The position numbers and the translations under genes are program-made. This document shows positions 1-11,992 of a DNA stretch of 32,591 bases, in pieces. The stretch covers positions 1-32,591 of the forward strand of contig DQSN01000033.1 of the NCBI GenBank assembly GCA_015663245.1, given 5' to 3'. The notes under the pieces were generated by a model. That model did no database searches. It saw only the letters and a list, made by a program, of their open reading frames with translations, and was not told the DNA's origin. The number at the start of each line of letters is the position of its first letter. Position 1 is the stretch's first letter. The stretch is from Leucothrix mucor. GTDB taxonomy: Bacteria; Pseudomonadota; Gammaproteobacteria; Thiotrichales; Thiotrichaceae.

Positions 1-94
1 GCGAATAGCAGGGCTATTTAACGATTTCAATAAGCTCAGATTATGAGGTTTATGGGATTTGCAGTAGCTTCTTAGTTCTCGGACAGGCTCCTAG
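1..94. mobile_element. Right end of a transposable element (rest lies left of the window)
   Basis: Bases 76-94 (TTCTCGGACAGGCTCCTAG) are identical to the outer 19 bases of the right terminal repeat of the complete MITE at 11792-11958. The subterminal block TTTGCAGTAGCTT (58-70) is also identical to that MITE at 11921-11933. Further inward the two differ. This suggests that the sequence here is the end of a longer, possibly transposase-bearing, parent element and that the MITE is a derivative. The end is a CTAG tetranucleotide, as in the MITE. The IS family cannot be named from this fragment. Confidence 0.6.
2..46 (+). CDS. Possible 3' end of a transposase gene (partial)
   Basis: One plus-strand frame is open from base 2 and ends at TGA 44-46, giving the tail RIAGLFNDFNKLRL. 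It stops about 48 bp before the terminal repeat of a mobile element (76-94), which is the usual distance between a transposase stop codon and an IS end. Only 14 codons are visible, so neither the family nor the coding status can be established. The call rests on position relative to the terminal repeat, not on homology. Confidence 0.3.
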   Translation, partial: RIAGLFNDFNKLRL

Positions 95-124
95 GAGGAT
101 GACCGAGAATGGTAAGCCTCCTAG
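91..124. repeat. 34-bp remnant of the same CTAG-bounded element family
   Basis: This stretch starts and ends with CTAG and has 8-bp inverted ends, CTAGGAGG (91-98) and CCTCCTAG (117-124). Between them lies ACCGAGAATGGTAAGC (101-116). Apart from its first base this matches the left end of the MITE at 11802-11817, which reads TCCGAGAATGGTAAGC. It appears to be an element collapsed to little more than its two ends. It shares its first CTAG with the element end on its left. Confidence 0.5.
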
Positions 125-8365: not shown

Positions 8366-8947
8366 CTATGCCTTAATCAAACCAGTAAAGCCCATAAAGG
8401 CAAGCGCCATCAAGCCCGCTGTGATCATTGCAATGGCATTTCCTTGAAATACTTCAGGCACATCGGATGCGGCTATTCTTTCTCGCATCGCCGCAAACAA
8501 TACTAGAATCAAGGTAAAGCCCATTGCCGAACCAAAGCCGTATAAGCCTGACTCAATAAAGCCATTTGATTTTTGTACATTTAATAGTGCCACACCCAAG
8601 ACCGCGCAATTAGTTGTAATCAAGGGTAAATAAATACCCAGTACGTTATGCAACAGAGGGCTGGTTTTATGCACCACTAATTCTGTAAACCCAACAATTC
8701 CCGCAATCACTAAGATAAAGCTAATCGTGCGTAGATACTCCAGGCCATTGGGAATCAATAGATACTTATGGATTAAATAGCTGGTGATAGAAGATAAAGT
8801 GAGAACAAACACTGTCGCCAAACCCATACCAATAGCCGTTTCTAATTTGCGAGAAACACCCATAAATGGACACAGTCCCAAAAACTGAGACAAGACGATA
8901 TTGTTAACCCATACCGTACCAATAATGATAAAAAAATATTCAATCAT
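8366..8947 (-). CDS. rsxA: Electron transport complex subunit RsxA/RnfA
   Basis: RsxA is an integral membrane subunit of the Rnf/Rsx complex and the first gene of the rsxABCDGE-nth string. At 193 aa it has the same length as the E. coli protein. Signature segments are [18 protein letters not shown] (15-32) and [13 protein letters not shown], which mirror those of RsxE and hold the cysteines thought to ligate a membrane-embedded iron-sulfur centre. About six transmembrane helices are apparent. No strong Shine-Dalgarno sequence is visible before the ATG (8945-8947). The operon promoter should lie in the 440-base AT-rich gap upstream, but no clear -35/-10 pair stands out on this strand. Confidence 0.96.
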
Positions 8948-9388: not shown

Positions 9389-9610
9389 ATGAAAAAGCAA
9401 TTAATACTAGCGGGTATGGTTTTATCTACTTTAACATTGACTGGTTGTGGCGGATCAAACGTAGCAAAAGGAGCAGCAGCAGGAGCAGTAGCAGGCGCTG
9501 TTATTGGAAGATCAACAGGTGATCATAGTGATCAACGCACAAGAGAAGCGGCAATAATTGGTGCAGTGGGAGGAGCAATTATAGCTAACGAACGTGATAA
9601 GCGTCGATAA
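9389..9610 (+). CDS. Small glycine-zipper lipoprotein
   Basis: This is a 73-aa lipoprotein, similar in plan to OsmB/YMGG-type proteins. The signal sequence ends in the lipobox LTGC (Cys20). The mature part is dominated by glycine-zipper repeats, first AKGAAAGAVAGAVIG (26-40) and then AAIIGAVGGAIIA (54-66), separated by a charged loop (STGDHSDQRTRE) and closed by NERDKRR. Two such hydrophobic Gly/Ala hairpins usually insert in or associate with a membrane. A good ribosome-binding site, AAAGGA (9376-9381), lies 7 bases before the ATG. The gene stands alone, and the terminator at 9742-9775 is the first one downstream. It is distinct from the SlyB-like protein at 2177-2623. Confidence 0.8.
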   Translation: MKKQLILAGMVLSTLTLTGCGGSNVAKGAAAGAVAGAVIGRSTGDHSDQRTREAAIIGAVGGAIIANERDKRR

Positions 9611-9741: not shown

Positions 9742-9775
9742 AAAACCTTTGGGGGTTTTTCTCAAAGGTTTTTTT
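9742..9775 (+). terminator. Rho-independent terminator, plus strand
   Basis: A 10-bp stem, AAAACCTTTG (9742-9751) with CAAAGGTTTT (9763-9772), encloses an 11-base loop and runs into a seven-T tract (9769-9775). It lies 131 bases after the stop of the small lipoprotein gene. That leaves either a long 3' untranslated region or a short independent transcript between them. Confidence 0.8.
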
Positions 9776-9953: not shown

Positions 9954-9983
9954 TTGCATAATATTAACAAATGACAATATACT
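9954..9983 (+). promoter_or_regulatory. Sigma-70-like promoter of the small RNA candidate
   Basis: TTGCAT (9954-9959) and TATACT (9978-9983) are separated by 18 bases and match the -35 and -10 consensus at 4 or 5 of 6 positions each. The predicted start, about 9989-9991, coincides with the first base of the closing stem of the structured RNA. No open reading frame follows before the terminator. Confidence 0.6.
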
Positions 9984-9988
9984 AAATC

Positions 9989-10093
9989 ATCTGCGCAGTT
10001 ATCAGTGGCTCAAATGGGTATTTTTAGCCATCTTTGTGTGCAGATTTCATACCCTCCTAGCGGTTGGCACCTTTTTCGGAAGGTGTCCTTTTT
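9989..10093 (+). ncRNA. Candidate structured small RNA, about 105 nt
   Basis: No protein gene lies here, but all parts of a small RNA gene do: a promoter just upstream (9954-9983), a composite hairpin and a terminator. The closing stem ATCTGCGCA (9989-9997) pairs with TGTGCAGAT (10037-10045), 9 bp with one G-U. Nested inside, TGGCT (10006-10010) pairs with AGCCA (10026-10030), and AAAT pairs with ATTT around a GGGT loop. The single-stranded stretch 10046-10065 contains CCCTCCT (10052-10058), complementary to a Shine-Dalgarno sequence. The terminator stem GGCACCTT/AAGGTGTC (10066-10073/10080-10087) ends in TTTTT. I recognise no known RNA family. The layout suits a base-pairing regulatory RNA, but targets are unknown. 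Confidence 0.6.
10066..10093 (+). terminator. Rho-independent terminator of the small RNA candidate
   Basis: The stem GGCACCTT (10066-10073) pairs with AAGGTGTC (10080-10087), with one G-U pair and a 6-base TTTCGG loop. It is followed by CTTTTT. It also separates plus-strand transcription from the convergent DUF4124 gene ending at 10141. Confidence 0.75.
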
Positions 10094-10140: not shown

Positions 10141-10944
10141 TTAAAGCTTCTTTGCTTCCAAAATATCATTAGATATCTTTATCTTTTCTTTGGCATCTAC
10201 ACGTTTTTTCTTCTTATCAATCCCCCCAGCCAATTGTACTTTAGATGTTTCCTCTGTATTTCGTATTTCTGATAGAGCCTTTTCTAACTGCTTAATCACT
10301 TTTGATTCTTGAGCAGCACTTGCTGGATCTTTCTGCTTTTTTGTTAAATTATCAAAACGCTTCAAGTTTTTATCATATTCTTTTTTCAATTTGCTTTTTT
10401 CGACCATATTCTCAGTAATTGCTTGTTGATATACTTTCAAGCCATCAAGCATGTCATCTATTTTTCCTTCCAATATTTTTTTAAATTTAGGATTTTTCAT
10501 TTTTTCATGCTTTATCTCAGTCTTTTCCAACCGCTTGGACAATACTTTATGCCGCGCCTTTAGTAATACAACACTCTTAGAGGACATAGTAATTTTACCC
10601 TCATATACGTTTATCAATTCATTTCTATTGGAGTAAATAGAAAGCAACTGCTCATCTTGCATTTTCTTTAACGCAGCTTTTATCGCATTCTCACGCTGAA
10701 TCTTTTGCTCTTTCTTTTTCTGTTGTTTTATTTTTTCAACTTCTTTTTTTTGTACTGCCGATAATTTTGATTTTTTTTCTACACCACTATTGTTCAACTC
10801 AACATGACCATACTTTACTGCTGTAGGAGGAATTTTATCTGAATAAGAAACGTTCCCCTGCTCATCGACCCAACGGTATAAGCCCGCAGAAGCTGAAAAA
10901 GGTGTTAATAAAAAGACTACGGAGAATAAAAGGAATATTTTCAT
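10141..10944 (-). CDS. DUF4124-containing exported coiled-coil protein
   Basis: The preferred start is the ATG at 10942-10944, giving 267 aa with a signal peptide (MKIFLLFSVVFLLTPFSASA). A GTG at 11037 would add 31 residues before the signal and is less likely, although neither start has a clear ribosome-binding site. Directly after the signal comes a DUF4124 domain, GLYRWVDEQGNVSYSDKIPP, typical of small periplasmic or secreted proteobacterial proteins. From about residue 60 onward the protein is very Lys/Glu-rich, with heptad-like helical sequence (KKEVEKIKQQKKKEQKIQRE), and probably forms a long coiled coil. Function is unknown. The DUF4124 motif is clear, and anything beyond an envelope location would be guesswork. 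Confidence 0.8.
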   Translation of the reverse strand: MKIFLLFSVVFLLTPFSASAGLYRWVDEQGNVSYSDKIPPTAVKYGHVELNNSGVEKKSKLSAVQKKEVEKIKQQKKKEQKIQRENAIKAALKKMQDEQLLSIYSNRNELINVYEGKITMSSKSVVLLKARHKVLSKRLEKTEIKHEKMKNPKFKKILEGKIDDMLDGLKVYQQAITENMVEKSKLKKEYDKNLKRFDNLTKKQKDPASAAQESKVIKQLEKALSEIRNTEETSKVQLAGGIDKKKKRVDAKEKIKISNDILEAKKL

Positions 10945-11791: not shown

Positions 11792-11958
11792 CTAGGAGCC
11801 TGTCCGAGAATGGTAAGCGTCGCGAAAATTTGGCTGATTAGCGCCTGTTTTATGATCAAATGAGGAAAATGGTTGTTCCCTTTAACAAATTTGACCATAA
11901 AACAGGTGCAATCAGGCGAATTTGCAGTAGCTTACTCCATTCTCGGACAGGCTCCTAG
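11792..11958. mobile_element. Complete palindromic MITE, 167 bp
   Basis: The ends are a perfect 22-bp inverted repeat (11792-11813 and 11937-11958), each beginning with CTAG and reading GGAGCCTGTCCGAGAATGG inward. The similarity continues beyond the terminal repeats. The left arm, with GGCTGATTAGCGCCTG then TTTTATGATCAAAT, mirrors the right arm, with GCCTGATTGCACCTG then TTTTATGGTCAAAT, allowing a few mismatches and gaps. Nearly the whole element can therefore fold into one long hairpin with a roughly 25-base centre. It contains no transposase and sits between the convergent pyrE and ylqF genes. CTAG at both ends is either a 4-bp target duplication or part of the repeat; because CTAG is its own complement, one copy cannot decide. 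Confidence 0.85.
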
Positions 11959-11992
11959 GAGGCGGAGTTGCAGTATGCTATGTCATAAAACC

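Follow-up and report, generated by a model that had tools for sequence, protein, structure and literature searches.

Results

A small RNA gene in a gene-free gap

Does the gap between two protein-coding genes in the window, a stretch of 32,591 nucleotides from Leucothrix mucor, encode a free regulatory RNA, and what might such an RNA control? The gap is bounded by a glycine-zipper lipoprotein ORF that ends at 9610 and a DUF4124 ORF on the minus strand that ends at 10141. The original prediction placed in this gap a complete non-coding transcription unit, here called sRNA A, with a TTGCAT-18-TATACT promoter, a 9-bp closing stem enclosing a second hairpin, a 20-base linker containing CCCTCCT, and a T-tailed terminator. 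All of these elements are present where they had been placed, with agreement at every base, and an ORF check with Pfam found no convincing gene in the gap. The features of the locus are listed below, where g1 to g8 label genera within the family and g1 is the genus of the window; we tentatively equate g2 with Thiothrix and g5 with Leucothrix.

8366..8947, minus strand: rsxA (Rnf-Nqr subunit of the Rnf complex; Pfam PF02508, synteny), the divergent neighbor of A in most genera
9954..9959, plus strand: -35 element TTGCAT of the sRNA promoter; every Cocleimonas-type and g5 copy has TTG
9978..9983, plus strand: -10 element TATACT after an 18-bp spacer; TATACT or TATAAT in all g1 and g5 copies but one (G042, TACACT)
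9989..10093, plus strand: sRNA A, predicted transcript of about 105 nt (fold, conservation, covariation, profile search)
9989..9997, plus strand: P1 5' arm, pairing with 10037-10045 (9 bp); both-side changes at 2 of 9 pairs in g1 and 7 of 9 in g5
10005..10010, plus strand: P2 5' arm, pairing with 10026-10031 (6 bp); in the g1 alignment 100% of cells paired, with both-side changes at 4 of 6 pairs
10016..10021, plus strand: P2 loop GGGUAU, candidate pseudoknot with 10049-10054; both strands invariant in 14 of 14 g1 and g5 sequences
10026..10031, plus strand: P2 3' arm; covariation in the g1 alignment
10037..10045, plus strand: P1 3' arm; covariation in both alignments
10046..10065, plus strand: 20-nt linker including CCCTCCT, read from the sequence
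10049..10054, plus strand: AUACCC, loop partner in the candidate pseudoknot; in g2 its counterpart UAYCC pairs with a strand upstream, and A-U/G-C compensation is seen
10053..10067, plus strand: invariant block CCUCCUAGCGGUUGG, putative anti-Shine-Dalgarno seed, to which RNA B is also proposed to bind; 26 sequences share an invariant CCTCCTAGCGGTT
10066..10093, plus strand: intrinsic terminator with T tail; a terminator lies 3' of the block in all relatives

The terminator is formed by a stem (10066-10074 with 10079-10087) followed by CTTTTT to 10093, which gives it a U tail, and its first GG is also part of the conserved block. The fold of sRNA A has a predicted energy of -32.3 kcal/mol, as compared with -22.9 +/- 3.1 kcal/mol for dinucleotide shuffles (z = -3.0), and none of 200 shuffles was as stable. 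The promoter is unremarkable by itself: a consensus scan did not list TTGCAT-18-TATACT, and promoter-like sites were about as numerous as in shuffled sequence. Because a terminator-like hairpin (9742-9772) lies 3' of the lipoprotein gene and the DUF4124 gene runs on the opposite strand, the unit stands alone.

Conservation and covariation of A

We judged the gene to be real from its conservation rather than from its promoter. Comparison with relatives, on which the original prediction could have failed, upheld it. The promoter, stems, linker, and terminator are retained in 5 other genomes of the genus (171-bp query; 8 further genomes searched), and both stems covary in two independent alignments. 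In g1 (n = 6 sequences), six pairs of P1 and P2 changed on both sides (13 cells), and in g5 (n = 8 sequences) this was true of 12 of 22 pairs (23 cells); none of 500 shuffles scored as high in either case. The signal was lost from both alignments when the pair columns were shifted by one to three. These both-side changes, together with their loss upon shifting, indicate that P1 and P2 are real RNA helices.

The 5' domain varies by genus: g1 and g5 have the nested P1/P2 structure, g2 has a long hairpin in which the block is partly sequestered, and g3, g4, and g6 have just one simple hairpin. The most conserved part of A is the linker segment CCUCCUAGCGGUU; CCTCCTAGCGGTT is invariant across sequences from six genera and abuts the terminator stem directly. 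Near-invariance of this kind would also suit a protein-coding or DNA-level signal, such as a small ORF, a repeat, or an uptake or regulator site, in place of an RNA. We give this explanation a negligible chance, since the stems flanking the block covary as RNA, the frame of an ATG in the loop is not retained and meets stops after 3 to more than 20 codons in relatives, and the terminator is always 3' of the block.

In g1 and g5, AUACCC at the start of the block has its complement, GGGUAU, in the P2 loop. Neither strand ever varies, and we treat the helix that they could form as a candidate pseudoknot. In g2, a switch between UAUCC and UACCC is matched by A-U/G-C compensation at alignment columns 35/76 (7 and 5 sequences), and the helix holding UAYCC covaries overall (21 cells; 0 of 500 shuffles). 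As judged from these alignments, placement of the block beside a pairing partner is a recurrent theme, with a candidate loop in g1 and g5 and a strand in g2. The RNAalifold structure behind our model R1 pairs CC with GG within the conserved block; this is probably wrong, and R1 is mainly a sequence profile.

The original prediction had recognized no common RNA family in A, and our scans agree. Rfam 15 covariance models at the gathering threshold matched no family over A, nor any at A or at the partner RNA B (see below) in relatives, and a relaxed scan (E<=10) gave chance-level matches only, none overlapping A. From these sequence comparisons we conclude that 9989-10093 on the plus strand is a genuine gene for a small RNA, and that its family had not been described before.

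Distribution, neighborhood, and siblings of A

Using a profile of the 3' core (E <= 1e-7), we found relatives of A in 41 of 63 genomes and 7 of 8 genera of the family, a count in which several matching sequences also served to build the profile. A class-wide profile search of 369 genomes gave strong matches in family members only; outside the family, matches in class genomes were weak and for the most part to generic terminators. Some family genomes (such as G004, genus g8) gave no match to A; a number of these are incomplete, and the absences are weak evidence because many genomes are fragmented. About ten matches in unrelated phyla from an exact 16-mer scan were without flanking stems or terminator and were discounted as chance.

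In most of the genera examined, A and rsxA are divergent genes. Among the exceptions are a Cocleimonas relative that retains the DUF4124-pyrE side only and two g3 genomes. A sibling of A with the same block and its own hairpin and terminator occurs in g2 and g4 beside nqrF (identity confirmed by TIGR01941), a gene of the Na+-NQR complex that is homologous to Rnf. Coordinates also place siblings close to NqrE-like genes in g6 and in further g2 genomes. The terminator of A and its position near conserved genes would be compatible with a cis-acting element (a leader, an attenuator, or the terminator of a neighbor) rather than a free RNA. This is highly unlikely given that the upstream gene, rsxA, is divergent, the downstream genes checked are on the opposite strand, and siblings occur at nqrF and elsewhere.

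The promoters of the siblings are unrelated. They are sigma70-like in g1 and g5, and most g2 and g3 copies have TGAAC-N16-(GCGAC or TAGAC) with constant spacing (loci L045-L056, L073, L076, L144, and L147); the resemblance of the latter to an ECF-sigma promoter is suggestive. In the nqr-linked sibling, a conserved TGCTGCACTGCAAAA box is found about 45-70 bp 5' of the hairpin (L194-L205, L165, and L166, upstream of ~1500), and similar boxes precede some rsx-linked copies of A (L083, L071, and L043). This box is possibly an activator or repressor site.

Two further kinds of element were seen in these searches. A genome from another family (G245, L094 at ~1500) contains a hairpin followed by TTTCCTCCTGGTTGGG and a terminator (E 3e-6 with R1), which was excluded from the counts of A and is a possible analogous anti-Shine-Dalgarno RNA outside the family. 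In genus g8 (G020, L140; 4240536 and 4245350), two weaker elements consisting of CTCTCCTCCT...TTTGGGC and a terminator lie 3' of paralogous ORFs, about 190-217 codons in length, and may be related 3'-UTR elements.

Candidate targets of A

The original prediction pointed to CCCTCCT as a complement of Shine-Dalgarno sequences. Candidate targets are consistent with this idea and strengthen it, but the invariant block proved to be CCUCCUAGCGGUUGG rather than CCCUCCU alone. The sequence CUAGGAGG is the perfect complement of CCUCCUAG in A. A search of five genomes of the genus with one pattern, CTAGGAGG at 3-9 nt before ATG, returned 25 sites. In four of the five genomes, including that of the window (contig C162), soxX has CUAGGAGG as its Shine-Dalgarno region (SoxX 87.5 bits against a cut-off of 61, TIGR04485). 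This gene is the first of soxXYZA, in which the order of soxY, soxZ, and soxA was read by eye from ORFs. The 8-mer stands out because only 8-14 of the 30 bases 5' of it are identical between genomes, which is near random. The energies of the soxX duplexes are modest, with 4 to 65 of 1000 shuffles as good.

CTAGGAGG is also present before two SoxAX-binding-like genes, before genes for a NapC-type and a diheme cytochrome, and before a sulfurtransferase gene and cydA, all assigned on family scores below the curated cut-offs. In g5, one CGCTAGGAGG site lies ahead of a gene that by eye looks like soxA; a Pfam search with its first 90 residues gave no match. A wide search for the CGCTAGGAGG complement before ATG was partly confounded by TAG stop codons that overlap Shine-Dalgarno sequences. 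We also observed that a 23-mer, TTCTCGGACAGGCTCCTAGGAGG, occurs as two identical copies in the window (76-98 and 11940-11962, 11.9 kb apart); it is a dispersed repeat and also contains CTAGGAGG.

With a conserved, exposed segment in which CCUCCUAGCGGUU is invariant in 26 sequences, and with complementary sites before start codons, A has the sequence hallmarks of an anti-Shine-Dalgarno RNA. Since CUAGGAGG includes AGGAGG, itself a Shine-Dalgarno sequence, strong ribosome-binding sites match by themselves and only the CU prefix adds specificity; this prefix is rare by chance in the four diverged soxX sequences, which share ancestry. A might, then, act on ribosome-binding sites of other mRNAs while the match at soxX reflects merely a strong Shine-Dalgarno sequence, as the overlap of CUAGGAGG with the consensus and the heterogeneity of the other target matches would allow. 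We consider this unlikely. The match recurs at soxX in four of five genomes despite the near-random identity upstream, and several of the further matches are at SoxAX-binding-like, sulfurtransferase, and cytochrome genes, a theme that seems improbable by chance.

A putative partner RNA with a loop complementary to A

A search for the complement of the block surfaced a second unannotated RNA element, B, which is divergent from rnd (identity confirmed by TIGR01388). B, the complementarity of GGGUAU with AUACCC, the link to rsx and nqr, and the sibling copies all go beyond the original prediction. In the genome of the window (G000), B is on contig C184 (~2095-2200 of L207), convergent with lexA; its other loci are L206, L208, L209, L212, L230, L232, and L233. 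B is found in eight g1 genomes, five g5 genomes, G011 (g4), and G013 and G057 (g6). A loose scan for the loop complement, too permissive for statistics, recovered B in G003 and G057. A group II intron domain near rnd in G002 (L212:229-426, minus strand) scored above the Rfam gathering score.

B contains a short hairpin with the loop A(A)YCGCUA, the complement of UAGCGGUU in A. The loop is retained while the stem changes between genera, from UCUCC paired with GGAGA or GGAGG (g1) to CCUCC/GGAGG (g5), CCUCA/UGAGG (g6), and CCAAC/GUUGG (g4); within g1 and g5 alone, covariation of this stem is modest. Compared with 200 shuffles of B, the A-B duplex had a better energy than every shuffle in 8 of 11 genome pairs; in the other pairs it surpassed 197-199 of the 200. 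In g5, the complement reaches about 20 nt (CCAACCGCUAGGAGGGGUAUG) and B carries its own terminator. The g1 promoter of B has a TTGAC-N4-RTCAA motif that resembles an FNR-type box and overlaps the -35 region.

Complementarity is symmetric, and A and B could also pair with the roles reversed, such that B (or its targets) is the primary regulator and A a sponge or decoy, with the siblings of A at rsx and nqr reporting the respiratory state by mopping up B. The promoter of B in g1, with its FNR-type-like box, and the terminator in g5 agree with such an arrangement. We nonetheless regard it as quite unlikely, as A has a classical anti-Shine-Dalgarno segment with complements of the soxX type and occurs in seven genera as compared with four so far for B.

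Discussion

We favor, with some reservation, a model in which A is an anti-Shine-Dalgarno sRNA that represses sulfur-oxidation and cytochrome mRNAs and B is its sponge. According to this model, A would be transcribed as a stand-alone, trans-acting small RNA. Its 5' part would serve as a structured, stabilizing domain and its 3' part would present CCUCCUAGCGGUU just 5' of the terminator. By antisense pairing of CCUCCUAG with CUAGGAGG at ribosome-binding sites, A would block translation, above all of soxX and also of other periplasmic sulfur-oxidation and cytochrome genes. Repression is presumed here rather than activation. For a possible role of Hfq, the U tail of the terminator is the only feature seen. 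The loop GGGUAU, folding back on AUACCC beside the seed as a candidate pseudoknot, may tune seed exposure. B would display its A(A)YCGCUA loop, bind UAGCGGUU of A in cells, and so titrate A.

More tentatively, and with slightly less than even confidence, we suggest that this pair forms a two-RNA circuit in sulfur-oxidizing Thiotrichaceae. In such a circuit, anti-Shine-Dalgarno siblings at Rnf and Na+-NQR would tie the state of the respiratory chain to Sox translation, with a dedicated, loop-displaying sponge divergent from the RNase D gene. If the sRNA-sponge model holds, a central sulfur-oxidation operon is under riboregulation in these bacteria. With siblings beside both rsx and nqr, the proposed link from redox pumps to sulfur metabolism is concrete and testable, and the covariance models and target lists open the hypothesis to direct tests in cultured Leucothrix or Thiothrix. 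A limited literature search (Thiothrix and small RNAs) turned up no account of regulatory RNAs from this lineage.

How does A compare with known systems? In enterobacteria, CyaR covers ribosome-binding sites with a CCUCCUUAG-like seed. Rfam scans here did not match A to CyaR, which differs from A in structure, location, and lineage; the likeness is a lead only. NmsRA and NmsRB of Neisseria are, like A, sibling sRNAs with anti-Shine-Dalgarno segments between stem-loops, through which they repress metabolic genes, as A is presumed to do; they differ from A in being tandem copies with three stem-loops, another sequence, and TCA cycle targets (PMC5362039). The ar14/cuckoo RNAs, for example NfeR1, share with A a conserved, unpaired anti-Shine-Dalgarno motif amid variable stems; however, they have three hairpins, each with CCUCCUCCC, whereas A has one CCUCCU in a linker, nested P1/P2, and a terminator (PMC10746234).

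The closest parallel is with the aR8 sRNAs SisA-D of Caulobacter, siblings with unrelated promoters that have in common a single-stranded UUUCCUCCCU 5' of the terminator, and with the sponge CrfA, which binds the aR8 core via a G/A-rich stem loop (PMC12559287). Like SisA-D, A has a hairpin, then a single-stranded C/U-rich anti-Shine-Dalgarno core, then a terminator (PMC12559287). Both systems also have several siblings with unrelated promoters and a partner RNA whose loop complements the core, here by sequence. If our model is correct, the sRNA-sponge pair parallels this alphaproteobacterial pair with unrelated sequence. Sponging is experimentally shown for CrfA (PMC12559287) and presumed for B. 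The core of A is AUACCCUCCUAGCGGUUGG / CCUCCUAGCGGUU rather than the 10-nt UUUCCUCCCU of aR8, and the alphaproteobacterial aR8 RNAs are linked to an N-formylglutamate amidohydrolase gene, whereas A is linked to rsx and nqr. Because its core sequence, lineage, and neighborhood differ, A is not a member of aR8, ar14, or NmsR. We view A as a new family within a known kind of RNA, with aR8/SisA-D and CrfA as its nearest counterpart in logic.
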